From Moorena sp. SS36440bin_2 (GTDB lineage: Bacteria; Cyanobacteriota; Cyanobacteriia; Cyanobacteriales; Coleofasciculaceae): DNA of 59,228 nucleotides. The stretch's first letter is position 1, and every line of letters starts with the position of its first letter. Shown here piece after piece: positions 17,082 through 57,924 of the stretch. The stretch covers positions 1 through 59,228 of the forward strand of contig WTKN01000097.1 in assembly GCA_011524395.1 (NCBI GenBank). Reading direction: 5' to 3'. A model generated the notes under the pieces. That model was given only the letters and a program-made list of their open reading frames with translations. It did no database searches and was not told the origin of the DNA. The position numbers and the translations under genes are program-made.

Positions 17082-20000
17082 TTAATCTACCTCCATTAGT
17101 GCTTCTAGTTCTTGGTTAATTATATTTTCTAAATTTTGATCTGATAGTTGCTTGATATTGCTTGATATTTCTGCTTCTATATCGTGTTCATTTGGCATTT
17201 GATTCGGTTTGACTTTTTCTGGCTCCGATGATTTCCAATGCAGTATCTCTTCTATTATGTATTCAGCCAAACTTAAAACATTAGAATGCTCAAAAATCAA
17301 CGCTGTAGGTAAAGAACAACCTATACTATCCTGTAGTCTATTTTTTAGACCAACAGCCATCAAAGAGTCCATACCCATATCGAAAAAACCTTGCTCTGGG
17401 TTAGGAAGTTCAGACTTTCCTACATATCCCAATACATTGGCTACTTCAGCTTGAAGGAAACCTATCAAAAGTTCATAGCGTTCATTTTCTGGTGCTGATT
17501 CCAATTTTTTCCATGACTGTGCTGCTGGACTTGAACCTCGATCTGCTAAATTCTGCGATTGTACCTCAATGTTTTCTAAAAGTAAACTTCTAGTGGTACT
17601 CTCGTAAAGTTGCTTAAATATTGACCAGTTCATGTCAGCAACTATTATGTTAGGAACATTCTGACTTATTAGTCTTGTCGCAACTTCAAGAATATCTGTT
17701 GGCTCCGTAACATTTAATCCTACTCCTATTGTTTGTTGCTGGGCTTCAGGTGAAGAGAAAGCCATCCCACCACTAGCTAAAATTCCTACATTAACTGTTA
17801 ACCCTGACAAGCCAAGGCTTTGCCGATAATGAGCAAAAATATCAAGAAAGTGATTAGCCGCAGCATAATGAGCAAGACCTTTTGAACCAAATATAGGTGA
17901 CATAGAAGAGGGGCTGAAGAAAAAGTCTAGGTTCATATCCAAGGTTAGTTCATGTAAAATCCATGTTCCCAATACCTTAGGACCTAAAACTAAATCCAAG
18001 TCATTAGGAGTAATACATTGTATAGGTTTAGCTTGACTAACACCTGCTAGATGAAAAATCCCTTTCAGTTGTGGACAATAACGTTTAACTTTGTTTAAGA
18101 TCGTGGACATCTCTTCTTGATTTGAAACATCGGCTTGGAATACCAACACTTCAGCTCCTAAGTTCTCCAAATAATCGATCGTCTCCTGGGCTGCATTTGA
18201 AGGAGCACTACGTCCTATCAAAACCAGATGCTTTGCTCCACCCTCCACTATCCAGCGAGCTGTATTAATTCCAAAATGACCAAGGCCACCTGTTATTAAG
18301 TAAGTGGCATCAGGAAGAAAATCTATAGGCTTAGTTTCTTTTGTCAATTTCTGACTATGTACTAAGCGAACAATATAACGTTTTCCACCTCGAAAAACGA
18401 TTTGGTTTTCTCGATCTTGACTCTCTAGTTCCCTCAATAACTGCTTGGCTGTATCTTCAAGACCAACTTCACTATCTAAATCTATAAGTTTGCTTGATAT
18501 ATCTGGAAATTCTGTAGCTATAACCCTTCCTAAGCCCCAGACAGGTGCTTGAGGTGGAGAGGGAGGAACCACTTCTGAACCTACTTTTTGTACATTTTGA
18601 GTTACAAATCCCAGGAATGGCAAAGAGGATGCTGTAATTTTAGTAACTGTTTGCACCAAATTTAGTATGCTTGTGACTGAGCGTAGCCGATCTTTCTGTA
18701 AGGAAGCAACAGTTGTTTCTTGACCTGACTTCACATCTAAACTCCAAAGATGGATAATACCACGACATGGGAACTGATTTGTTTCTAATACTCCCTCAAT
18801 CAGTTTCTGTAAACTTTCTTTGTCTGCCGGGTTAAGATAAATTTCATCTGTATTTTGAATCTGAGATGTTTCGCTACAACGAACAATAATACAACTCTGT
18901 TGTTGCTGTTTGAGCAATTCTACTAACTTGTCAGCAACTCCAAGGCTATCTGCAAATATAATCCAACTGCCAGGCTCTTTATTCAGAAGAAATGAAGGTT
19001 TTTCTTCGGTTTCAGATATCGGCTGGGGTTGCCATTGCATCTCATATAGTAACTCTGAATAATCATCTGCCAAACTGCTGTTGTCAAGTAAGTTATTAGC
19101 TTTATGCATCTGCAAACTATTAACTTCAACCAGTAAGTTACCTTCCAGATCGAATATACGAACATTACCCTCAATTGAATCTTCTTCTCCATCTAAAGAA
19201 GTAGGCAAGGCTGCATAGCTGAACACCTCATCCTTTATTGGTTTATGAACTTGAATATTCTTGATACCTATGGGAAGATATACTGATTCAGTATTCGTAG
19301 ATATTAATGCTGCTCCCATCACCTGATGACAAGCATCCAAGAGTGCTGGATGAATTTTAATTGAATTATGGGAGACATTTTTAGCAGGAATTTTTACTTT
19401 AGCTAGAGCTTCATTTTGACCTAACCAAAGGCTTTCGATTCCCTGATAATTTTCCCCTAGTTGCATTCCAGATTTATCTAAATAGGCATAAAACTCTTGG
19501 GCTGATTTTTGGTTGATACATCGGTTTTTAATTTCTGGAAGAGTATTTTCGACGTGAGATATCAGTTGTGTCTCATCTTTTTCTGCTTGTATGGCTTGGG
19601 ATGAAATGCCATTGGTTAAGTTAGTCAGTTGTGTCTCATCTTTTTCTGCCCCTATAGATTTTGATGAAATGTCATTAGCCAAGTTAGTAGGAAGTTTATC
19701 AAATACCCTTACCTGGGCATTGTAGATTTCTCTAAGTCGATCTAGATAAGGTAGATGTTCTAGAATTAACTCCTTACTTTGACCAAGATCGAGCAAACAG
19801 GCTATTTCATTAACTCCAATAGCATCTAGTTCTTCTATCAGATTAATACAGGTTTCCGGTGTTCCAATTAATCCCCTAGAAGAAGCAAATCCTTCATATA
19901 AAAAATTAACAAATTCGTCCATGTCTTTTTCAGACATCTTGACTTTATCTGGATTATAACCTCTACTCTGGGGTACACCTTGTGCAAATAACTTAAAATT

Positions 20001-20765
20001 AGACTTAATATATTCACAATAAGGACCCCGTATCAATTCCCTTACCTGGTTAAAATCCTCACCAACAAAGGTATGTAACATCATTGATACTATTCCTGTA
20101 TCAGGATCGAATCCATAATCGGCTCTATTTTGACGATAAAGGGCAATTTTTTTGGTTAATTCCTCTATACTTTGTTGACCTAGTAAAGAAGTTAAAATAT
20201 TCGCACCAATTTGTCCTGCTGTAGCGAATGTTCTGGGGCTACTAGCAGCAGTAATCCAAGTAGGTAGTTCTATTTGAACTGGTTTAGGATATATTCTGAT
20301 ATCGACTAAATTGCCATTTCCACTTTTAACTTGAATTGACTCTCCTTGCCAAAGTTTTCTAACCGTTTCTACACCAATAAATAATTCATTATGACGCTCT
20401 TTATATTTTTCAGGAAACATGGCAAAATCATCAGGATTCCATCCAGGGGCAAAAGATATACCCACTCGGCCACCAGATAAATTATCCACAATAGACCAAT
20501 CTTCAGCAATTCTAATTGGGTGATGTAGAGGTAAAACTAAGCTTCCTGATTGTAATCTGACTCTCTGAGTTTCTCTAGCTAATGCAGCATTTATCACTGA
20601 AGGATTTGGATATATACCACCAAATTCTGTAAAATGACGCTCTGGTGTCCACACACTAGAGAAATTATGCCGATCAGCGAACCGAGCACTTTCTATGACT
20701 AGGTTGTATTTATTTCCTATCAAACTATCTTGACTGCTACCAAAGAGCATTAAACCAAACTGCAT
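17082..20765 (-). CDS. PKS protein I: LLM-half DH-KR-ACP
   Basis: This 1227-residue protein completes the module begun by H. Residues 1-345 are a luciferase-like flavin monooxygenase of the natural-product type (SVWTPERHF near 40, NLSGGRVGISFAPGWNPDDF). Such domains in PKS/NRPS lines hydroxylate or oxidise carrier-bound chains. After a linker comes the second hot-dog half of a dehydratase (about 415-590, HPALLDACHQ with Asp477). KR follows (about 755-990, Tyr967 in HYAAAN), then ACP (Ser1134 in GMDSL) and a docking helix (LSDQNLENI). KS, AT and the first DH half are on H, encoded 33 nt upstream. The KR is atypical: FSPSSM replaces the usual FFVCFSS run, and NVG replaces NWG. An AGGA site precedes the ATG. 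Confidence 0.9.
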   Translation of the reverse strand: MQFGLMLFGSSQDSLIGNKYNLVIESARFADRHNFSSVWTPERHFTEFGGIYPNPSVINAALARETQRVRLQSGSLVLPLHHPIRIAEDWSIVDNLSGGRVGISFAPGWNPDDFAMFPEKYKERHNELFIGVETVRKLWQGESIQVKSGNGNLVDIRIYPKPVQIELPTWITAASSPRTFATAGQIGANILTSLLGQQSIEELTKKIALYRQNRADYGFDPDTGIVSMMLHTFVGEDFNQVRELIRGPYCEYIKSNFKLFAQGVPQSRGYNPDKVKMSEKDMDEFVNFLYEGFASSRGLIGTPETCINLIEELDAIGVNEIACLLDLGQSKELILEHLPYLDRLREIYNAQVRVFDKLPTNLANDISSKSIGAEKDETQLTNLTNGISSQAIQAEKDETQLISHVENTLPEIKNRCINQKSAQEFYAYLDKSGMQLGENYQGIESLWLGQNEALAKVKIPAKNVSHNSIKIHPALLDACHQVMGAALISTNTESVYLPIGIKNIQVHKPIKDEVFSYAALPTSLDGEEDSIEGNVRIFDLEGNLLVEVNSLQMHKANNLLDNSSLADDYSELLYEMQWQPQPISETEEKPSFLLNKEPGSWIIFADSLGVADKLVELLKQQQQSCIIVRCSETSQIQNTDEIYLNPADKESLQKLIEGVLETNQFPCRGIIHLWSLDVKSGQETTVASLQKDRLRSVTSILNLVQTVTKITASSLPFLGFVTQNVQKVGSEVVPPSPPQAPVWGLGRVIATEFPDISSKLIDLDSEVGLEDTAKQLLRELESQDRENQIVFRGGKRYIVRLVHSQKLTKETKPIDFLPDATYLITGGLGHFGINTARWIVEGGAKHLVLIGRSAPSNAAQETIDYLENLGAEVLVFQADVSNQEEMSTILNKVKRYCPQLKGIFHLAGVSQAKPIQCITPNDLDLVLGPKVLGTWILHELTLDMNLDFFFSPSSMSPIFGSKGLAHYAAANHFLDIFAHYRQSLGLSGLTVNVGILASGGMAFSSPEAQQQTIGVGLNVTEPTDILEVATRLISQNVPNIIVADMNWSIFKQLYESTTRSLLLENIEVQSQNLADRGSSPAAQSWKKLESAPENERYELLIGFLQAEVANVLGYVGKSELPNPEQGFFDMGMDSLMAVGLKNRLQDSIGCSLPTALIFEHSNVLSLAEYIIEEILHWKSSEPEKVKPNQMPNEHDIEAEISSNIKQLSDQNLENIINQELEALMEVD
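19563..19688 (-). repeat. 63-nt tandem duplication in the LLM-DH linker
   Basis: Two in-frame copies of 63 nt (19563-19625 and 19626-19688) encode 21-residue repeats, each containing AEKDETQL. The duplication lengthens the linker between the monooxygenase and the second DH half. The copies differ at several bases, so the event is not very recent. Confidence 0.8.
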
Positions 20766-20798
20766 ATTTTTTATCCTAATATTAATGTTTGACTATAG

Positions 20799-23700
20799 TT
20801 ACTGATGATTCAAGGTAATCTTTGCGGTCGCACATAAAGTCCAATTTGGTTGAATTGATTGTTTTTGGATTCGACAGCTATAAACATTAAAGGACATTAA
20901 ATTATCAAACTCATCAGGATAAAGGATAGTTTGTATCTTTTGATTTTTTGTTTCAGATAAAAAGAGAGGTTTATGTAGTATCAAATCATTGATAGCATTA
21001 CATTCCACCCCAAAAACGATTTCTGCAACAGCCAAGCCCATTTCTATATAAGCAGTGTGAGGCATTAGCACAGAGCCTAAAGAACGATTATCTTTAATGT
21101 ATAATAAAAATTGATCGTCAACCTCAGTTTCCCAAATATAGGTATTTGGAAGATGAGCCAAATTTTTCAATCGATAACCTAAAAGAGGATGTTCCTTGTT
21201 ATGACTTTGCTGTTGCCAAAGTTCTAATCCATTTACATCTGATTCTGATTTCGTAGTTTCTAACCAATATCGTTGCCGTTGGAACGGATAGGTAGGTAAC
21301 ACTACTTTTTGACAGTTGGATTTCCTGTAGAATCCTGACCAGTCCACCTGCACTCCTTTAACATACATTTGTCCTAAACTAGAGAGCATCTGTTGCCAGT
21401 CTTCCACTCCAGGACGCAAAGAGGGTAACCAGATACTCTCTTTTGATACACACTGTTTCCCCATGCCCAACAAAGTAGGTTTCGGTCCAATTTCCAGGAA
21501 AATTTCATATCCAAGTTTCTGCAAAGTCTCCATACTTTGATAAAATTTTACTGGTTGTTGCACATGATTAACCCAGTATTTAGATGTAGTTATATTCTCA
21601 TCTGCTTGTAGTCCAGTAACATTTGATATAAGTGGAATCTCAGGCTGATTATAGGTCACTTGATTAGCTACTGCTGCCAACTCTGCCAACATTGGTTCCA
21701 TTAACGGTGAATGGAAGGCGTGGGATACCTCTAGTTGTTTGGTTTTAATTCCTTCAGCTTCTAAGCTACTCACCATGGTCTTCATGGCTACTGATTCTCC
21801 AGAAATGACTACACTTTCTGGTCCGTTTATTGCTGCAATACCTATTTTGGTGTCTGGAGCTATCAGGGTTTTCACTATTGATGCCGATCCCATCACCGCC
21901 ACCATCTCTCCTCCACTAGGCAACTCTTGCATTAACCTACCCCGCTCGGCTATCAGTTTCAGACCATCTTCTAAACTGAAAATCCCTGCTACTGTTGCTG
22001 CTACATATTCTCCCACACTATGACCCATGACTATATCTGGTTTGATTCCCCAGGATTGCCATAGTTGGGCTAGAGCATATTCTATCGCAAATAGAGCAGG
22101 TTGGGTATAACCTGTTTGACTTAATAGAGATGAGCTGGATTCGTTTTCATTTATAGGATAGAGAATTTCTTTGAGGGTGGTTGCAGACAACCACCCTAAG
22201 ATTTCGTCACATTTATTAATAGCTTCTCGGAATACTGATGATTCTTCATATAGTTCTTTTCCCATATTTACATATTGGGAACCTTGCCCTGTGAATAAAA
22301 AGGCTATTTTCGGTGGAGTGCTATTGTTGGGCAGTTTTTCTGAACAGATTCCTGCTACTTCTGCACCTCCTTGATACTGTTCTAATTTTTCTACTAATTC
22401 TTGTTGGTTAGTAGCGATAAGAATTAGTCTATGATTAAAGTCGGCACGTCCAGTATTTGCTGTGTAGCAAATATCCCCTAACTCACTTTCATTGTTTTCT
22501 TCTCCTAGATAATTTTGATAGCGAACTACCAACTCAGAAAGTGCTTTTTCCGTTTTTGCTGAGAGAGTTAATAAATGCAACGAATGTTCTAAAATATCTG
22601 CCTCTTGCAGAGGAGCTACCCTATCATTATTACTTCTAACTTTTGACTTATGAAGTCTGACTTCTAGCGGTGCTTCTTCTATGACTATGTGAGCGTTCAC
22701 ACCCCCTATTCCAAAAGAGCTAACTCCTGCTCGTCTAGGAATCTCTTCCCCTGATTCTGTTTTTAACTTTTTCCATTCTTGAGTTTGATCAATTATGTAA
22801 AATGGACTATCTTTTAAATTAATGCGTGGATTTAATTCTTTAAAGTTAACAATATGTGGCAATTTTTTATGCTTCATTGCCAAGAGGACTTTAATCACTC
22901 CAGCAATTCCCGCAGCTCCTTCCAAATGTCCAATATTACTTTTCACTGCCCCCAAACCACAATAGGATTTATTTGACTTTCCTAACCCATATTGCTGATG
23001 TAGTTGTTTAAATCCTCGTTTGAGAGCGTTAATTTCAATGGGGTCTCCCAAAGGTGTACCCGTACCATGAGCTTCTATATAAGATACTGTATTGGGTGGA
23101 ATATTAGCTTTAGTATAGGCAGAACGCAAAACTTGAGATTGAGCATAAACATTGGGAGATGTTAAGGTTCTAGCTTTACCTCCATGATTTATAGCACTCC
23201 CTTTGATTACGCCGTAAATATGATCGCCATCTCCTATCGCTTTCTCCAATGATTTTAATAATATTACTCCTGCCCCCTCTCCCCGAACATAACCATCAGC
23301 ATCACTGTCAAAAGTTTGGCATTGTCCAGTAGGAGACAACATCCCCAGTTGACTCATTTGGATATATGTTGTAGATGTAAACAACACACTGATTCCACCT
23401 ACAAGTGCCATTTCACATTCCGATTCTTTGAGAGAATTAATAGCATAATGAATCGCTACCAGAGAACTTGAGCAAGCTGTATCTATGGGAATACTTGGGC
23501 CGTGAAAGTTGAAGTAGGAAGAAATGCGATTGGGAATCATACAGGTCCAAGTTCCTGTACCATTGTGTCCCTCAATGTCTTCTTCGCTTTTGTTCATCAA
23601 TAGAATTGAATCATAATTACAAGCTCCGATGAAAACACCTACATTACTTCCTGATAGTTGAAATGGTGAATACCCTGCATCTTCGATACAAGACCAGCTC

Positions 23701-24026
23701 AACTCCAGCATCATTCTCTGTTGCGGATCTAAGCTTGTTGTTTCTCTAGGAGAGATACCGAAAAATTGGGCATCAAACTGGTCTACTCCTTCTATCAGTC
23801 CTCCCCACTTGCTGATACTTTTATTTGGTTGCTCAGGAGTGGCAGAATAATACTTCTCTACTTTCCACCTTTGGGAAGGAATTTCACTAATACTATTAAC
23901 TCCTAATTCAAGATTTTGCCAAAACTGGTTGTGGTCATTCGCTCCTGGAAATCGACAAGCCATACCAATAATGGCTATTAGATCGCTCTGGTATTCCTGA
24001 TTCATCATCACCTTTACACTCCTCAT
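20799..24026 (-). CDS. PKS protein H: KS-AT-first half of DH
   Basis: This 1075-residue protein starts almost directly with KS (about 17-450, Cys185 in DTACSSS) and has no class 2 docking helix. That makes it the best candidate for the first extension module. The KS differs from the others (GHNGTGTWTCMIPNRISSYF, LTSPN) and resembles KS domains of hybrid lines such as microginin-type synthases. AT has Ser670 and malonyl-type HAFH. The C-terminal 120 residues are only the N-terminal hot-dog of a DH, and its catalytic His is Asn980 (DNRSLGSVLMP). The chain then stops, and the second half lies on I. The start codon overlaps the stop of G by 4 nt. Starts at 24008 or 24005 are also plausible, as AGGAG lies about 10 nt before the former. 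Confidence 0.92.
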   Translation of the reverse strand: MRSVKVMMNQEYQSDLIAIIGMACRFPGANDHNQFWQNLELGVNSISEIPSQRWKVEKYYSATPEQPNKSISKWGGLIEGVDQFDAQFFGISPRETTSLDPQQRMMLELSWSCIEDAGYSPFQLSGSNVGVFIGACNYDSILLMNKSEEDIEGHNGTGTWTCMIPNRISSYFNFHGPSIPIDTACSSSLVAIHYAINSLKESECEMALVGGISVLFTSTTYIQMSQLGMLSPTGQCQTFDSDADGYVRGEGAGVILLKSLEKAIGDGDHIYGVIKGSAINHGGKARTLTSPNVYAQSQVLRSAYTKANIPPNTVSYIEAHGTGTPLGDPIEINALKRGFKQLHQQYGLGKSNKSYCGLGAVKSNIGHLEGAAGIAGVIKVLLAMKHKKLPHIVNFKELNPRINLKDSPFYIIDQTQEWKKLKTESGEEIPRRAGVSSFGIGGVNAHIVIEEAPLEVRLHKSKVRSNNDRVAPLQEADILEHSLHLLTLSAKTEKALSELVVRYQNYLGEENNESELGDICYTANTGRADFNHRLILIATNQQELVEKLEQYQGGAEVAGICSEKLPNNSTPPKIAFLFTGQGSQYVNMGKELYEESSVFREAINKCDEILGWLSATTLKEILYPINENESSSSLLSQTGYTQPALFAIEYALAQLWQSWGIKPDIVMGHSVGEYVAATVAGIFSLEDGLKLIAERGRLMQELPSGGEMVAVMGSASIVKTLIAPDTKIGIAAINGPESVVISGESVAMKTMVSSLEAEGIKTKQLEVSHAFHSPLMEPMLAELAAVANQVTYNQPEIPLISNVTGLQADENITTSKYWVNHVQQPVKFYQSMETLQKLGYEIFLEIGPKPTLLGMGKQCVSKESIWLPSLRPGVEDWQQMLSSLGQMYVKGVQVDWSGFYRKSNCQKVVLPTYPFQRQRYWLETTKSESDVNGLELWQQQSHNKEHPLLGYRLKNLAHLPNTYIWETEVDDQFLLYIKDNRSLGSVLMPHTAYIEMGLAVAEIVFGVECNAINDLILHKPLFLSETKNQKIQTILYPDEFDNLMSFNVYSCRIQKQSIQPNWTLCATAKITLNHQ

Positions 24027-27000
24027 TTTTTATCAAGACATTTTTGAAGTTTTTGAGCCAATACCTGAACATGAGGTTGAGTCATCATTGTTAGATGATT
24101 TCCAGGAATATTATAAACCTCAACCGGTTGTTTTAAAAAATTATGCCAACCTAATGTTGGCTCTTTTAAGTTTTCCAAGTTGGCCTTATAAGCTTCCCAC
24201 AAGGCGGGAACTTGATTTATATATCCATATTCTGCTTGAGTATTATTGAACTCATCAGTTCGGAAAAGAATTATTTCTGTTGGAGAGACATTCTCTGGTA
24301 AATAGTCATCTATAGCAGTCAAATTTGTCTGAAAAACTTTCATAAAAGCACGAACTTGATTAATATTTGCTTGAGTTGGCATCATATCAAGTTGAATTAA
24401 TTTTTCTTTGAGATATTCAAATTGCTCGTCTAATGAAAGAGATTCGATATATTCACGGGGTATATTGATTTCTCGACCTGATAACTCTTGAACTTGAGAA
24501 ATCAGCAAAACTATCCAATCTGTATCATCCAATACTCGAAAATAAAAATTCTGATACTCAGGAATAGGTGCGCTAGTGTCAAAAATAGCCACTAAACCTA
24601 CCTCATAATTAGCCTTAATTAGCTGTTGAGCCATTTCAAAAGCTACCTTACCTCCAAAAGAATGACCACCAAGGAAATAAGGGCCTTGAGGTTGAATAGT
24701 TTGAATAAATTGGATATATTGAGAAGCAATATCTTGAATGTTTGTTAATGGATCAAACCCATCATTTAGTCCTTGAGCTTGTAGTCCATAGAAAGGTTGT
24801 TCTTGATCTAAGTGGCGAGCCAGATCATAAAAATAAATCAGGTTCCCTCCAGCTCCAGGTACACAGAAAAAAGGTGGCTTGGAGCCAGTAGCTTTGATAG
24901 ATACTAAGGGAGACCAAGAAATATCCTTTCTTGAAGAACGCAAAAGATTAGCTAACTTTTCTATAGTTGGATTTTGGAAAAGTGTAGCTAAAGATAAATA
25001 CTGATGAAATTTTTGCTCAATTTCAGCCATCAGACGAACAGCTATCAAAGAATGACCGCCTATATCGAAGAAATCGTTTGTCACTCCCATTGGAGTAATA
25101 TTAAAAATACGCGACCAGATTTGGGCAAGTTCAATTTCTATATTGTCCCGAGGAGGGACAAACTTTCCTTCCATAGCTAAATATGATTCTGCTGTAGGTA
25201 AAGCTTTTCGATCTATCTTGCCATTAGAAGTCAATGGTAATGCTTCTAAAAATACAAAGGCAGATGGTATCATGTAATTAGGTAATTTCTGTTGCAAATA
25301 AATTTGTAAGTCTTCACTATTTAACGACTGGTCTTTAGTAACAACATAAGCCACCAATCGTTTATGACCAATATTATCTGCTCGAGCCAGAACCAAAGTT
25401 TGTTGTATTTGAGAATGAGCCAATAGTACTGATTCAATTTCGCCTAATTCAATGCGGAAACCCCGAATCTTGACCTGGTTATCAACCCGACCCATGAATT
25501 GAATATTACCATCTGGTAAATAACGAGCTAAGTCTCCAGTTTTATATAGTTTTGGACTTTTTACTTTTAATTGAGAATATGTGAACGGATTCGGAATAAA
25601 ACTACTCAAATTTTTATCAGGATTGTTAATATACCCAGAGCTTAGACATTCACCACCAATATATAAATCCCCTGTTACCCCAACTGGACAGGGATTAAAA
25701 TACTCATTGAGAATATAATACTGTGCATTCTGGATCGGTTTGCCATAAGGAATACTAACCCATTCTGGGCAAACTTCTTTTATAAGATAGTAATTTGACC
25801 AAACTGTTGCTTCTGTGGCTCCACCTAAACTAACTATTTCAACATTTGGAAAAGATTCCTTGATAATATTTGGTAATCCTAAAGGAATCCAATCACCACT
25901 TAATAAAACTAACTTTAAATAATTACAAGTATAATTTTTTGACTGAAGCAACGGTACAAGTTGTTCTAAAGCTGCTGGAGCTGAATCCCAAAAAGTTATT
26001 TGATAATGAGATAATAAATTGATTAATTCTTCTGGCTCTTTACGTTTTAATTCAGATACAATATAAATTGAACCACCAGCAGCTAAGAGGCCAAAAATAT
26101 CATAAACTGATAAATCAAAAGTGAGAGGAGTAATAAATAAAAGACGATCATTATCTCCTATGTCAAAGGTTTTATTTACCCAATCAATGACATTAATTAC
26201 AGGTTTGTGGCGAACAAGCACCCCTTTTGGTTTCCCTGTAGAACCAGATGTGTAGATTGCATAAGCCAAATTGCTTGAATCAACATTACTGACAGGATTC
26301 TGGTGGCTATGAGAAGCGATCGTCTCCCAATCATTATCCAAACATACCAACTGTATCTGATTCTTTGGTAAAGACTTCAATAAAGACTTAGTAGTAACTA
26401 ATACCCCTGCATCAGCATCTTCCAATATATAAGCTAACCGCTCTAATGGATAATTGGGTTCAAGAGGCACATAAGCACCACCTGCTTTGATAATCCCCAA
26501 AACTCCCACTACCATTTCTAGAGAACGCTCCACACAAATACCCACAAACATTTCTGGTTTTACTCCTAAACTTTGTAGGTAGTGAGCTAATTGATTTGCT
26601 TTTTGATTCAGCTGAGCATACGTCAATTGCTCCTGTTCAAATACCACCGCTATTGCATCAGGATTTTTTTCTACTTGCTCCTCAAATAACTGATGAATAC
26701 ATTTATATTGGGGATACTCACTATCAGTATCATTCCATTCCACTAACAACTGATGACGTTGAGTCTCAGTTAACAAAGGTAGAACCCCTATTTTCTGCTG
26801 AGGATTAACCACAATCTCTTCTAACAAAGTCTTAAAGTGGTCTGCCATTCGGACAATAGTCTGATGATTAAATAGGTCAGTATTGTACTTGAAAGTCCCA
26901 ACCAAAGAGGATATCCCTTCTTTCATTTCCAAATCTAAATCAAACTGACCTTCTTGCTGAGGAATTTCAAAAGGTTGTAATTTAAGTCCTTTCTGATCTA

Positions 27001-28279
27001 CAACTTCATCCCCAAAAATTTTTTGCATATTCTGCAATTGTCGGAAGTTCTGTAAAGCAAATAAAGCCTGAAATATAGGCGGGCGACTAGGTTCTCGCTC
27101 TAGTTGCAATCTTTCTATCAGTAACGGAAAGGGAAAATCCTGGTGTGCTAGTGCTTCCAATACTGTACGACTGACTTGACTGAGGAATTCTAGAAAACTT
27201 GGGTTACCTGAAAGATTTACCCTAATCACCACAGGACTCACAAAGTAGCCAAAAATTGGTGTAAATTCCTGCTTAGTTCTACCTGAAGTTGGAGAACCAA
27301 GTAAAATATCCTCCTGTCCAGTATAACGATATAAAAGGACTTGAAAGGCAGCAATCAAAACCATATAAAGACTTCTCTCTTCCCTTTGAGCTAATTCCTT
27401 CAGTTGTGCCGATAGCTTCTGAGATAATTGGAAGTGATAGGAAGCACCATTATAAGTTTGTATCGATGGTCGTGGTCGGTCGGTGGGTAAATTAAGTACA
27501 GGTAACTCTCCTCCTAGTTGTTTTTGCCAGTAGTTCCAAAGTTTTTCCCCTTGAGGACTATTCAACATATCTTTTTGCCAACGGACATAATCCACATAAG
27601 AATGCTTGAGAGGTTCCAGAGATGGTTTAATTCCTGAGTCTAATGCTTGATAAACCATTCCTAACTCTTCCACCAAGACTAAAACAGACCAAGCATCTGC
27701 TACAGTATGGTGTATTGTTAGCAAAAGGATATGTTGATCTTCAGAACAATTGAACAAAGACACCCGCATCAATGGTTCTTTTTCTAAATCAAAGGGTTGC
27801 TTGCTGTCTTGATATACTCTTTGATGAAGTTCCTCCTCACTCAAACCGGAAGTATCTATTTGCTGAATCTCTATGGAGTTGCTTTGATGTACTTGTTGAA
27901 TTGGTTCCTTACCATGTTTAGGGAACGTAGTACGCAATAGAGGATGACGATCAATTAATATCTGTAAAGTTTTCTCCAAAGTCGTAACATTCAACTCAGA
28001 ACAAATACGACAAGTAAATGCTATATTGTATGCTACGCTTTCAGGTACTAATTGCCACAAAAACCATAATGCCCGTTGACCATAAGATAAGGGATAAACA
28101 TTTAAAATATCTGGATTATCACTTAGTAATTTTAATATCTCTATTTTGTGTTCCTTGAGTTGAGCTAATACTGAATCAGTTGACTCATCATTCGGAGCAC
28201 GATAACGTAGTTTTTCCCCTTGAGTCCATAATTGCCAACCTTTAATTGAAAGTTCTTGCAATAATTGAATTAAATTCAT
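24023..28279 (-). CDS. NRPS module G: TubC-C-A-PCP-TE
   Basis: This 1418-residue module adds an amino acid and releases the product. It has a TubC-like docking domain (1-50, LLQELSIKGWQLW), then a condensation domain (about 60-490, HHTVADAW with His191 and Asp195). The adenylation domain spans about 515-1010 (YTSGSTGKPKG, GGATEAT, YKTGDLARYL, NGKIDRKAL). PCP carries Ser1077 in GGHSL and the type I thioesterase Ser1207 in GHSFGG with His1395. By eye the specificity residues read D-L-Y-D-L-S-L-V-W-K, close to the cysteine code, and LSGDWIP with GGATEA fits that clade. The C domain is ordinary, not a heterocyclase. It overlaps F by 4 nt and very likely takes the chain from F. Confidence 0.95.
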   Translation of the reverse strand: MNLIQLLQELSIKGWQLWTQGEKLRYRAPNDESTDSVLAQLKEHKIEILKLLSDNPDILNVYPLSYGQRALWFLWQLVPESVAYNIAFTCRICSELNVTTLEKTLQILIDRHPLLRTTFPKHGKEPIQQVHQSNSIEIQQIDTSGLSEEELHQRVYQDSKQPFDLEKEPLMRVSLFNCSEDQHILLLTIHHTVADAWSVLVLVEELGMVYQALDSGIKPSLEPLKHSYVDYVRWQKDMLNSPQGEKLWNYWQKQLGGELPVLNLPTDRPRPSIQTYNGASYHFQLSQKLSAQLKELAQREERSLYMVLIAAFQVLLYRYTGQEDILLGSPTSGRTKQEFTPIFGYFVSPVVIRVNLSGNPSFLEFLSQVSRTVLEALAHQDFPFPLLIERLQLEREPSRPPIFQALFALQNFRQLQNMQKIFGDEVVDQKGLKLQPFEIPQQEGQFDLDLEMKEGISSLVGTFKYNTDLFNHQTIVRMADHFKTLLEEIVVNPQQKIGVLPLLTETQRHQLLVEWNDTDSEYPQYKCIHQLFEEQVEKNPDAIAVVFEQEQLTYAQLNQKANQLAHYLQSLGVKPEMFVGICVERSLEMVVGVLGIIKAGGAYVPLEPNYPLERLAYILEDADAGVLVTTKSLLKSLPKNQIQLVCLDNDWETIASHSHQNPVSNVDSSNLAYAIYTSGSTGKPKGVLVRHKPVINVIDWVNKTFDIGDNDRLLFITPLTFDLSVYDIFGLLAAGGSIYIVSELKRKEPEELINLLSHYQITFWDSAPAALEQLVPLLQSKNYTCNYLKLVLLSGDWIPLGLPNIIKESFPNVEIVSLGGATEATVWSNYYLIKEVCPEWVSIPYGKPIQNAQYYILNEYFNPCPVGVTGDLYIGGECLSSGYINNPDKNLSSFIPNPFTYSQLKVKSPKLYKTGDLARYLPDGNIQFMGRVDNQVKIRGFRIELGEIESVLLAHSQIQQTLVLARADNIGHKRLVAYVVTKDQSLNSEDLQIYLQQKLPNYMIPSAFVFLEALPLTSNGKIDRKALPTAESYLAMEGKFVPPRDNIEIELAQIWSRIFNITPMGVTNDFFDIGGHSLIAVRLMAEIEQKFHQYLSLATLFQNPTIEKLANLLRSSRKDISWSPLVSIKATGSKPPFFCVPGAGGNLIYFYDLARHLDQEQPFYGLQAQGLNDGFDPLTNIQDIASQYIQFIQTIQPQGPYFLGGHSFGGKVAFEMAQQLIKANYEVGLVAIFDTSAPIPEYQNFYFRVLDDTDWIVLLISQVQELSGREINIPREYIESLSLDEQFEYLKEKLIQLDMMPTQANINQVRAFMKVFQTNLTAIDDYLPENVSPTEIILFRTDEFNNTQAEYGYINQVPALWEAYKANLENLKEPTLGWHNFLKQPVEVYNIPGNHLTMMTQPHVQVLAQKLQKCLDKK

Positions 28280-33965: not shown

Positions 33966-35321
33966 TCATTTCTTCACCATTTTGACCCCAGTCGCCGGAG
34001 CCAGAGCAATACTTCTTCTTTTAATTTTTTCAGGATTAAAATTAGCTAAATTTAACTTATAATTAGACATAATAGTTGCTAGAACTAATTTCATTTCAAA
34101 TTCTGAAAAAGCAGCTCCTATACAACGTCTTGCTCCTCCACCAAAGGGAAAAAATTCATAGGAATTAAATTTTTTTTCTAAAAAACGTTCTGGCTTAAAT
34201 TGCTCATGGTCAGGATAGATATCTTCTCTTTGGTGTGTGAGATAAATACAACCAAATATAGTGCTTCCTACTTCAAGGTGATATCCCATCAATTCAACGG
34301 GTTTTTCGACTTTTCTAGCTACAGTTAACATCGAAACCGGATAAATCCGTAAGCTTTCTTGACAAACTGCGGTAAGATAGGGAAGTTTAGCTATATCAAC
34401 CGGGCTAGCATTGGAGTGTAAACCAGATAACTCTTGTAATAACTTCTCTCGTACCTTTGGTAAATAATGTGTCCAATATAAACTCCAGGTCATGGCAGTT
34501 GCCGTAGTTTCGTGGCCAGCAAACAAAAGGGTTAATAATTCATCCCGTAATTCTTGATCGCTCAAATAATTTCCAGTTTCATCCTTTGCTGACATCAGCA
34601 AAGAAAGAATATCAGTGCGCGAGGAATCAGGGTAAGTACGACGATCGCTTATTTCTGTGTATAGTAATTTATCAATCTGTTGACGCAGCTTAATAAACTT
34701 CCCCCAGGGACTCCAATCCCCTAGGTCCCATTGTAAAAAGGAAAAAAAGATAACTGAGTTGGTAAGAGGAGAACTGAAAATATCTAACCAAGTGATCAAT
34801 AATTGCTTAATTTCCTGATAACGTTTCCCCTCATAAAAGCCAAAGACTGCCTGAATAATTACTTGTAAAGAGATGCTTTGCATTTTTGAGTGGGCAATAA
34901 AATTGCTGTTTTGGGGGATAGCATCAAACACTTGCTTAGTCAGCTTGATAATCAACTCACCGTAGGCTTTCATCCTTTCCCCATGAAAAGGAGGAATTAG
35001 AAGTTTACGACGTTTCTTGTGAGCATCACCTTCTAACATAACGATAGATGTATCCCCAAGCAACATCGATAATGGTTGATTAAACTTGCTTGGGGTGCTA
35101 AATTCATGGCCATCTTTAGTAAAGATCTGTTGCAATACTTGGGGGTTACTGACAATTACAAAAACAGAATCATCCCTGTTAAGGTTAATTTTGGTTGCAA
35201 AAATATCGCCATGGCATTTAGCTGCTCTTTCCATAAAGCCGGTCGGGTCTCTAATCCATTGAATTGTTTGGAAAAAAGAGGGAGCTTTAGAAACTCGAGG
35301 TATGATTGAATGAGTTGCCAT
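33966..35321 (-). CDS. Cytochrome P450, CYP110-like
   Basis: This 451-residue soluble P450 is probably a tailoring oxygenase acting on the polyketide or on the released product. The I-helix has AGHETT (about 267-272), the K-helix ESLRIYP, and the haem loop FFPFGGGARRCIG with Cys400 as the iron ligand. The N-terminus (FFQTIQWIRDPTGFMER) lacks a membrane anchor and resembles the cyanobacterial CYP110 family. Gaps of 65-70 nt separate it from D and F, within the same operon. The substrate cannot be read from sequence; hydroxylation or epoxidation are both possible. Confidence 0.92.
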   Translation of the reverse strand: MATHSIIPRVSKAPSFFQTIQWIRDPTGFMERAAKCHGDIFATKINLNRDDSVFVIVSNPQVLQQIFTKDGHEFSTPSKFNQPLSMLLGDTSIVMLEGDAHKKRRKLLIPPFHGERMKAYGELIIKLTKQVFDAIPQNSNFIAHSKMQSISLQVIIQAVFGFYEGKRYQEIKQLLITWLDIFSSPLTNSVIFFSFLQWDLGDWSPWGKFIKLRQQIDKLLYTEISDRRTYPDSSRTDILSLLMSAKDETGNYLSDQELRDELLTLLFAGHETTATAMTWSLYWTHYLPKVREKLLQELSGLHSNASPVDIAKLPYLTAVCQESLRIYPVSMLTVARKVEKPVELMGYHLEVGSTIFGCIYLTHQREDIYPDHEQFKPERFLEKKFNSYEFFPFGGGARRCIGAAFSEFEMKLVLATIMSNYKLNLANFNPEKIKRRSIALAPATGVKMVKK

Positions 35322-35390
35322 TATTCAAAAAATATATTCACCATTATGTAGATTTAAAAATTGGGATAAGTACCTCAAGAGGCAGCTTTA

Positions 35391-36677
35391 TTAAATTCTA
35401 CAATATCTGGTTAGGTAAGATATTGTTTTTTCAGCCAGCATTTCTATTGTCTTGTGACTAATTAGTGGCTGACAGTATAAAAAATTTAACATCATTGATT
35501 CTTCAAAAGTTAAAGCAGCACTAAAAAAAGTATTTTCCATTGAAAATTGTACAGCTACAGCCAAACTTATTTCCTCTAGCTTTAAAGAACCATAATTTGA
35601 TGGTATTTTTACATAACCTAAGTTAGTAATACCAACAGAGCAAGGAGCTTTAGGCATATTATTATCATAATTACTAATTAAAGACTCTAATATTTGTTTA
35701 GATTCAAATATCACATCAGTTTCTAACTTTTCTTTGACTATTTTAGTAATTGCTCTAGCTAACTCCCAAAATGATTTATCTTCTATTATTTCATGGATCG
35801 TATATAAAGATGACGCTAGCAATGCTAGATCATGATTACTAATAGGTGGATTTATCCTTTGTCTTAAATTGATAGCTGAAAAACAAGATAAAAATAAATT
35901 TTTATCTTTATCTTTAATCTTATCAGCAACTGCCAACATCATAGCTGCACATAAAGCACCATTTACGGTTGCATGTTCTTCCTTACAGGAACTGATAATT
36001 ACCTTAGTTATCTCAGGAGCTAATTTTTTATGGACTAATCCAGTCTTGCGTAGTTCTAAAGGTAAGTCTTGTTCAACTTCTAGAGTTTTTATCTCTTTAT
36101 CTATTTGCTGATTGTGCCACTTAATTTCAACTTTAGGCAATAAATCATCTAAAGATGGAAGCATAGGCAACTTAGAAATACTAGGAATTTTATTTTCAGA
36201 CAAAATCTGACCGCAAATACTCAAGAGTTCAGACATTAAATAGACTATTGAAATACCATCACAAATAATATGTTCCAGTGTAATTATTAAGTAGTTAACA
36301 TTGCTATCAAGAGTTTTTATTAAAACAGCTCTCATTAAAACTTTTTCGCTGTCAATTTGATTATTTATCTCTTCTATAGCAACTGATTGCCAATCTTCAG
36401 TATTTAGATTCTCAATTTCAACGATACGCAAAGGAATTTTTGGCGTTCCTTCAGTTTTAAAGTGTAAATCACCAGGCGAACCAATAATGTGACAATTCAG
36501 GAAAGGATGGCGAATTTGCAATAAGTCTAAAGCTTGTCTAAGAATTTTTTCTGTAAGGCCACCTCCAACTCGACTTATTGTTACGAGATTTCCTGATATA
36601 GAGCGAGTTAGCATTTTCATTGCTTCCTCAAAAGGAATCAGTTTTCTATTTTCAGTTACATTCATATCAACTGTCAT
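35391..36677 (-). CDS. Stand-alone condensation-like acyltransferase
   Basis: This 428-residue protein of the condensation/carnitine acyltransferase fold is similar in size and layout to PapA-type acyltransferases that esterify polyketide hydroxyls. Its active-site motif reads EHIICDG, with His136 and Asp140 matching the HxxxDG core; the first His of the usual HH pair is Glu. No carrier domain or adenylation domain is attached. Its place inside the operon, 16 nt after C and before the P450, suggests that it esterifies the product or transfers an acyl or aminoacyl group from a carrier protein. Orthodox alcohol acetyltransferase activity on a small substrate is an alternative. Confidence 0.75.
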   Translation of the reverse strand: MTVDMNVTENRKLIPFEEAMKMLTRSISGNLVTISRVGGGLTEKILRQALDLLQIRHPFLNCHIIGSPGDLHFKTEGTPKIPLRIVEIENLNTEDWQSVAIEEINNQIDSEKVLMRAVLIKTLDSNVNYLIITLEHIICDGISIVYLMSELLSICGQILSENKIPSISKLPMLPSLDDLLPKVEIKWHNQQIDKEIKTLEVEQDLPLELRKTGLVHKKLAPEITKVIISSCKEEHATVNGALCAAMMLAVADKIKDKDKNLFLSCFSAINLRQRINPPISNHDLALLASSLYTIHEIIEDKSFWELARAITKIVKEKLETDVIFESKQILESLISNYDNNMPKAPCSVGITNLGYVKIPSNYGSLKLEEISLAVAVQFSMENTFFSAALTFEESMMLNFLYCQPLISHKTIEMLAEKTISYLTRYCRI

Positions 36678-56022: not shown

Positions 56023-56830
56023 TTATCTTTGAAGGCGTGAAATTGAACCGTTACATTTGTTTAAGCAAACTGTTTTTGGTTTTTCTAAACTTAAACTAAC
56101 TTGCTCAAATTTATATGTTGGTATGCTTTTAGCTAATTCATATATTCTAGTTTGTATTTCTTCAGAGGATTTTTGTTTAACTACTATTTTTATTTTTGCG
56201 ATTCCTCCTAAATATTTTAATTCCCTTTGTTCGAGTTTTTTCATAAATGTTGTATTATTACCATAACCAGCATCAATTAAAACTATTCCTGGACGATAGC
56301 TTCTCCTGAAACTGCGGTCTATTAGCTCTATTCCTAGATCTTGCTTTTTATGAAATAATTTGTCATATTTTACCTCTGGTAAATAACTTGAATGTTGATA
56401 TAACTTAATATCTAAGGATAAACTTTTTTTTTCATCATAATTAATAATGAGTTGTTACGGTTACTATTCCAGTATATATTTTACCGATTTTTTCAATGTA
56501 TTGTCGGCCTAATTTAGACGTAAAATTACAACTTTTTCGGTGTCCATAATCGTCTAAAATTAAACTAAATCCTCTCTTGGATTTGGTTTGATAACGTTTA
56601 TTAATTATTTCTAGGCGACGTTGATTGATTTGACTAGTCTCCCAAGGAGAATCTGCGATGAAATGATGTAACCGATTATAAACTACTCCAATAGAGTTAT
56701 TGGCCATTTGAGATATGTTTTTACTTTCAATATCCCCTAGTAATCCACCAAAATAATGGCGGAATCCTCTTTTTTTTTTGGGGGGGGGTTCCCAACAATA
56801 ATCAATAAACTGCCCTTGTGGAATATTCAA
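56023..56830 (-). pseudogene. Broken IS701-type transposase
   Basis: These are the remains of a DDE transposase of the IS701 group. The N-terminal part (129 codons, 56830-56441) has the family pattern GLLGDIESKNISQMA, HHFIADSPWE, LILDDYGHRK and RQYIEKIGKI. At about 56440 the frame breaks: VTTHY is followed by a stop, and the frame then resumes out of phase as YDEKKSLSLDIKLYQ. It continues through VLIDAGYGNN and ELKYLGGIAKIK to a stop at 56023. About 270 codons remain against roughly 400 in intact members, so the C-terminus is missing. A run of ten T and nine G (56770-56788) lies near the 5' end. Confidence 0.8.
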
Positions 56831-56839
56831 AATTCGTCT

Positions 56840-57559
56840 CTAAATTTCTTCATTGTTAAGTTGGATATTTTCTGAATAAAAAAATGTTTTTAGTGCTATT
56901 AAATTAATTAAATATTCAATTTGTGTCCTTGCAACTAAGTATTTACCAATATCATTCAAGCATATATAATTCTTGTAATTCGTTTTTTTGCTGTATTTTT
57001 CGACGTTTATCGAAATCTTATCAGCCCATTCTTTAGCTATAAAGAATCTTGATAATTCTTCTCGGATATTAGGAATTACACCAAATAATAAAGGCCTTTT
57101 TTCATCTAATTCTAATAAATTATGCTTATGAAGCGCCAGCATAATTGGTATTATTAAAACCCCATATAATAAATCTACAATCGTTCTATCATTAATATGC
57201 CACTGCTGTTTATAAAGCTCTATCCAACTTTTCATAACAGCAGACTTTTCTTGTCCCAGTAAGTATGATTCTATAGGTAGATTGTATAACTCTAATATTT
57301 CTTCAGGAATGGACCAGCAAGCTTGAGAATTGTCTGTGAGGGAGTATTCATCAACTTCATTTTTTGATAGCCAACCTAGGAATTGCATCCTTCTTAAGGA
57401 TACTTGCAGATGACCCGTATTTGCCCCTAGAGTATTAGCTATTTGCTGGTGGGTTCTTTTTTTTTGTTTTATTAACTTAAATAATCCTTTTTCTCTACAG
57501 GCTAAGATTACAGGAACAGAAACAAAGCCATGTTCGTAACGATTAATTAACTCCAGCAT
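56840..57559 (-). pseudogene. Truncated SxtA/AprA-type loading methyltransferase N-terminus
   Basis: This 239-codon frame starts with MLELINRYEHGFVSVPVILA and contains CREKGLFKLI, LGANTGHLQVSLRRM and IIPIMLALHKHNLLEL. From memory this closely follows the N-terminal lid region of SxtA and of the loading-module methyltransferases of AprA and GphF. There the region is followed by a SAM-binding core, a GNAT domain and a carrier protein that make starter acyl units. Here homology fades after about residue 210, at IGKYLVAR, and the frame ends just before the transposase relic. The catalytic core is absent. It is probably a dead fragment of the operon's old loading gene. An unrelated sxtA-like gene remnant is the alternative. 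Confidence 0.65.
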
Positions 57560-57753: not shown

Positions 57754-57924
57754 TTAATCTAATTCGTTAGAACTAAGTTTCTTTCCGTGTTTGGTATCGT
57801 GACAATGTAGGTGTAATAATTCCAGATTTTTATCTTTGTTTTTTCCACCTAGTGCGCGTGGTGTTATGTGATGCTTTTCCAATAAATCTCCGTATCTGAA
57901 AGTAAGACCGCTCTGCAAAGGGTC
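57754..57924 (-). pseudogene. HNH endonuclease end of intron protein
   Basis: The in-frame remnant includes GLTFRYGDLLEKHHITPRAL, then GGKNKDKNLELLHLHCHDTK, and ends ELD-stop. This is the HNH endonuclease domain that closes many cyanobacterial group II intron proteins. The upstream codons, including reverse transcriptase and maturase, are deleted. The CxxC zinc-binding part is not seen. Confidence 0.75.

Follow-up and report, generated by a model that had tools for sequence, protein, structure and literature searches.

In Moorena sp. SS36440bin_2 the linker that connects the two hot-dogs of a polyketide synthase (PKS) dehydratase (DH) is occupied by a luciferase-like monooxygenase (LLM) domain, the chain is cut at the boundary between the first DH half (DHn) and the LLM, and this layout is conserved in further cyanobacterial genomes. 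The two genes concerned, H and I, probably make up a single extension module, KS-AT-[DHn / LLM-DHc]-KR-ACP, in which a scaffold DH seats an alpha-hydroxylating LLM. LLMs within PKS modules are already known; what appears to be new is that the DH of a PKS module with its LLM in cis is split and mostly inactive. Both genes belong to a PKS/NRPS cluster on the minus strand of the window, i.e., the whole stretch of 59,228 nucleotides that was analyzed, which is an entire contig (C224) of an assembly of 7.75 Mb and 441 contigs.

Gene H (20799..24026, minus strand, as for all following features of the module) encodes a KS (residues ~15-450), an AT (~573-895) with an HAFHS motif, which we take to be of the malonyl type, and the first hot-dog of a DH (~946-1075). 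The DHn half with its upstream linker forms the C-terminus (20802..21254, PF21089, E 7.3e-18), the PKS_DH_N match covering residues 946-1050 of the 1075-residue protein, which stops 25 residues further on. At the position of the catalytic His of the DH stands Asn980 (codon AAT, 21087..21089). Gene I (17082..20765) contains the LLM, the second DH hot-dog, a KR and an ACP, and Pfam assigns Bac_luciferase to residues 1-319, PS-DH to 409-558, KR to 820-997 and PP-binding to 1104-1170. The LLM (19731..20765) belongs to the MupA/Atu3671 family TIGR04020 and matches positions 1-341 of the 341 of this model with 465.3 bits at a cut-off of 244.45. It is followed by the second DH half (DHc, 19041..19583, PF14765, E 1.4e-27), in which the aspartate, Asp477 (19335..19337), is kept, so that the His-Asp dyad is incomplete. 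In the KR (17766..18311) the TGGLG, Lys, Ser, Tyr and Asn motif positions are present by eye, and the ACP (17241..17468) carries its serine in a DSL motif. Together H and I thus hold KS, AT, LLM and ACP, and the motif strings of KS, AT and ACP were found. As a side observation, the KS of H begins at about residue 15 (23900-24026, minus strand) and leaves no room for an N-terminal docking region, which is likewise the case in the relatives Tri (L013, a Trichodesmium MAG), G686 and G791.

To place the break, both halves were compared with the DH double hot-dogs of the curacin synthase. DHn of H matches residues 8-135 of the CurK DH and 3-127 of CurF, DHc of I matches CurK 146-286, and the break therefore falls in the linker between the hot-dogs. 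The CurK-matching parts make up nearly a whole double hot-dog; both halves are present, but on two chains, with two stops and a new start in between. In difference to the curacin DHs, the H/I version is interrupted by the LLM and a gene boundary, and its His is exchanged for Asn. The two genes lie in one frame but are separated by in-frame TAA and TAG stops, the second of them in the 33 nt intergenic stretch (20766..20798), which also holds an AGGA-type ribosome-binding site ahead of the ATG of I. An earlier note on this DNA had read H as ending after the first hot-dog, I as starting with a complete LLM followed by the second hot-dog, the break as lying exactly between the halves and Asn980 as replacing the catalytic His, and all of this is borne out by the matches above. 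It had also made its reading depend on the C-terminal part of H being a DH half, which, by PF21089 and the CurK match, it is.

To determine how widespread the arrangement is, genomes were searched with I or a part of it. As the earlier note had proposed, KS-AT-DHn followed by LLM-DHc-KR-ACP was looked for, and the split layout, more generally KS-AT-(MT)-DHn and then LLM-DHc-(MT)-(KR)-ACP, was found in 12 further genomes. The resulting 13 cyanobacterial genomes (the window, Tri, G030, G688, G716, G686, G791, G725, G727, G728, G700, G788 and G289) represent 9 genera, 4 families and 2 orders; domains were called by BLAST against those of the window and, for Tri and G030 only, by Pfam. The distance between the genes varies from -4 to 565 nt, and in 9 of the 13 pairs they do not share a frame, the start of the G788 gene being taken as the first methionine of the LLM. 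G642 was left out of these pairs, since its contig ends 45 nt upstream of the LLM ATG, before any DHn could show; an in-frame stop lies upstream of this ATG. With residues 1-562 of I as query, matches over LLM and DHc were obtained in 4 of 388 genomes of the order (E <= 1e-60), whereas the family of G030 gave 11 of 217 (E <= 1e-120), the phylum-wide sample 3 of 386 including the window (E <= 1e-118) and the family of the window itself 3 of 20 (E <= 1e-40), of which two match in the LLM only. The whole of I matched in 2 of 386 genomes across the phylum (E <= 1e-150), and the search with residues 1-562 did not find the split layout in the three other genomes of the window's genus. Because so few genomes match in order, family and phylum, the layout is rare and patchy.

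Some LLM of the same kind is carried by 71 of the 388 genomes of the order. Most loci read among these show an ACP followed by an LLM, an LLM beside C or A domains, or a free-standing LLM, and in L104 and L134 A domains are interrupted by the same LLM family (A-LLM-A). One cluster of G030 (C92; L010, L011) holds three LLMs: besides the one in the split DH, there is one within a KS-AT-LLM-KR stretch and another next to an A domain. In G700 (L123 3-5285) the order is KS-AT-MT-DHn, with the MT before the DH half and not after it. For G688, which has an acyl-ligase-like start, hassallidin was considered as the product, since hassallidin has a 2,3-dihydroxy acyl unit. However, where hassallidin calls for nine A domains, the stretches of G688 that were read show six behind the starter, and this product is therefore not claimed.

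The KR is a variable part of the layout. None was found in Tri (Pfam) or in G788 and G477 (BLAST against the window's domains), where DHc is followed directly by the ACP, by ACP-TE and by MT-ACP, respectively. Since Tri is a MAG, its missing KR could be a matter of assembly. G686 has its KR and ACP on an additional, overlapping ORF, possibly owing to a frameshift.

The interrupted DH also exists on one chain, in two proteins. G477 (L098) shows KS-AT-DHn-LLM-DHc-MT-ACP and the Acidobacteriota MAG L014 shows A-ACP-KS-AT-DHn-LLM-DHc-KR-ACP; a search of the family of G477 gave no further one-chain form (1 of 9 genomes, G477 itself). LLM modules without DH are present as well, by Pfam in the Opitutae L028 and L045 and, by BLAST only, in the second LLM modules of L014, L028 and L045. 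Their DH has perhaps been lost, and because the related Opitutae modules show none by Pfam, a DH is not always needed beside an LLM. In L014 and L045 two LLM modules follow each other after an AMP-binding starter domain, which suggests neighbouring 2-hydroxy units, while L028 is cut at the contig end; the second Opitutae LLM module has no AT by BLAST.

To trace the origin of the arrangement, trees were computed for the LLM and for the DH halves. In a 51-row LLM tree the DH-embedded LLMs and 5 of the 6 rows labelled KS-AT-LLM-KR form one group (100/100); the 14 split rows, among them that of G642, stand on one side of it (84/79), and both fused forms group with five DH-less forms (99/92). When the DH halves were joined, the 14 embedded rows (without G289) grouped apart from 50 intact rows, two of which are copies of window rows (97/86; 98% of 200 bootstraps). 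For DHn alone the support of the embedded group is only 47/70 and DHc alone gives no single group. PuwE was not among the rows of these trees. A 10-row alignment shows a gap at the LLM site in the intact DHs of window genes A, E and K and in two from L013. Because embedded rows group together, DH and LLM trees favour a single event that put the LLM into the DH linker. Since the joined halves support this and each half alone does not, we hold one origin of the embedded DH with moderate confidence.

For the function of the module we propose the following order of steps. DHn of H would pair with DHc of I as a mostly inactive double hot-dog, which would join the two chains and bring the LLM close to the ACP. 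Using reduced FMN and O2, the LLM would then hydroxylate the alpha carbon of the beta-ketoacyl-ACP, and the KR would subsequently reduce the ketone. As no dehydration would follow, the module is predicted to deliver a 2,3-dihydroxy unit, and relatives without KR a 2-hydroxy-3-oxo unit. The activity of the DH may have been lost because an active DH would act against the 2,3-diol. Somewhat more tentatively, with slightly less than an even chance, we suggest that the hot-dogs of the dead DH, being on separate proteins, have become a split-domain docking device that joins H and I and seats the oxygenase in all 9 genera.

The state of the DH was analyzed at its catalytic residues. Among 14 embedded DHs the His position is occupied by His in 4, Tyr in 9 and Asn in 1, and among 15 (G642 contributing DHc only) the Asp position by Asp in 4, Glu in 7, Asn in 3 and His in 1. 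The dyad is kept in 2 of 14 embedded (Tri and G030) versus 46 of 47 intact DHs (Fisher p 6.5e-10, uncorrected for relatedness). G289 also keeps both residues by eye, which raises the embedded dyads to 3 of 15 and adds a fifth His to the 4 in 14. Judged by these residues, inactivation is a trend among embedded DHs with Tri, G030 and G289 as exceptions, and the idea that the DH is dead in every member was rejected. As Tri, the nearest relative of the window, keeps the His, inactivation probably happened more than once. The motif proline is conserved in 13 of 14 DHn.

Selection was estimated from 7 pairs out of 10 genomes, which are not all independent, three of them being among G725, G727 and G728. 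Omega is 0.09-0.44 for DHn and DHc and below 1 in all 7 pairs, indicating purifying selection on both halves; for the LLM it is 0.09-0.18, and the DH halves are higher in 13 of 14 comparisons. By this measure the DH halves are constrained, although less so than the oxygenase. In Tri, G788 and G477, where no KR was found, a DH would have no substrate unless a KR acts in trans, and the halves remain nonetheless. The halves could be passive remnants of the insertion, with the LLM acting and H and I associating by other contacts while the halves stay unpaired, and the loss of one or both dyad residues in 12 of 15 embedded DHs would suit this, as would the DH-less modules of the Opitutae and, from BLAST only, the second module of L014. 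We regard this as unlikely, as passive remnants would not account for purifying selection on both halves, their retention across 9 genera and in modules without a detected KR, or the conserved proline. For the scaffold role that the earlier note had given the DH, the mostly lost dyad, omega below 1 and halves kept without KR argue in favour, and the intact His and Asp of three relatives against; the role is retained here as a probable one.

Known systems were compared to judge the chemistry and the novelty of the module. In interrupted NRPS adenylation domains an auxiliary enzyme is inserted inside a core domain; here it is a PKS DH that takes up the insert, and the chain is, in addition, divided over two genes. 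The closest solved sequence to the LLM of I is the oxygenase domain of PuwE of the puwainaphycin synthase (6ket), a member of the same LLM family that matches along the full domain with E 1.2e-118. In PuwE an aminotransferase and the oxygenase stand between PKS and NRPS modules, whereas in H/I the LLM is inside the DH; the available part of PMC4219810 ties the aminotransferase and monooxygenase to a 3-amino-2-hydroxy acyl unit. MupA, the namesake of TIGR04020, works in trans-AT PKSs as a separate enzyme that a bimodule with a KS0 recruits in trans, while the LLM of I is built into a cis-AT module. According to the accessible text of PMC10952193, MupA hydroxylates the alpha carbon only of the beta-ketoacyl-ACP, before ketoreduction, and by analogy this order would fit LLM and then KR in I. 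The earlier note's expectation of an oxidised unit instead of an alkene is consistent with this chemistry, and for the H/I module it is carried over from MupA. Module 9 of palmerolide, a trans-AT PKS, has an LLM within the module as proposed alpha-hydroxylase, and no split DH is mentioned for it in the part of PMC8739492 at hand. The same part ascribes Baeyer-Villiger insertion or oxidative chain shortening to the LLMs of calyculin and mandelalide, and the LLM of I might do such other chemistry; this is improbable, since the KR follows in most members and PuwE, the closest solved relative, is tied to a hydroxy acyl unit (PMC4219810, in part). In the open-licence literature, as far as its texts were accessible, LLMs occur within PKS modules, but neither an LLM inside a DH nor a comparable split DH was found, which agrees with the earlier note knowing of no such synthase; many subscription papers, including the hassallidin paper, lie outside this scope. 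The accessible part of the nocuolin paper (PMC5333925) has no interrupted DH.

Alternatively, the re-assembled DH could be active in some members and convert a 2,3-dihydroxy intermediate via an enol to a 2-oxo unit. Tri, G030 and G289 have the residues for this, G030 and G289 also a KR, but the window has Asn980, 12 of 15 lack one or both residues and no KR was found in Tri, which leaves this very improbable. An assembly error, a frameshift or a decayed gene as the cause of the split, which the common frame and the distance of 33 nt might suggest, has next to no probability, and a nonsense mutation or assembly error was rejected: two stops and the AGGA site separate the genes, gaps and frames vary as given above, and because 12 other genomes show the identical boundary, chance and assembly error can for practical purposes be excluded.

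In order to look at the fold, two AlphaFold2 models were built of the fused chain of L014. The AT was kept as alignment anchor, because AT-less or AT-shortened alignments put DHn on the LLM; model 1 was made from alignment A2 and model 2 from the largest of six fully consistent sets among 36 trial row sets. Model 1 has a mean pLDDT of 63.6 and a pTM of 0.42, and the AT dominated the 50 Foldseek matches listed. Model 2 reached 75.3 and 0.44, a pTM that leaves the domain placement open, and shows the strand-helix elements expected of both hot-dogs. Its LLM matched 6ket (target TM 0.79), and among the 50 of 1587 matches listed, the other rows were headed by AT or whole-PKS chains.

Elsewhere in the window, a C-A-PCP-TE protein with thioesterase is encoded in mid-cluster just before H (24023-28279, minus strand), and gene order and chain order probably differ. 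A P450 and a PapA-like acyltransferase between PKS genes (33966-36677, minus strand) are likely tailoring enzymes. At 56840-57559 (minus strand) lies an AprA-type starter methyltransferase fragment (AprA_N and winged helix), whose match to 7uci is confined to residues 4-184 of that 713-residue chain; a DDE_5 transposase fragment (56441-56830) follows, an HNH fragment (57754-57918) lies upstream, and the starter gene looks broken.

If the proposed reading of H and I is true, a modular synthase gains an oxidation step by an oxygenase entering the DH linker; the DH then tends to lose its chemistry while selection goes on acting on its sequence, and two proteins may come to be joined at the cut. 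A reading gene by gene could mistake H for a KS-AT-DH that lacks an ACP and lead to the prediction of an alkene. KS-AT-DHn followed by LLM-DHc would then be a signature by which to search for clusters with a possible 2,3-dihydroxy acyl unit in their product, and the arrangement would be a possible template for putting oxygenases into cis-AT modules.
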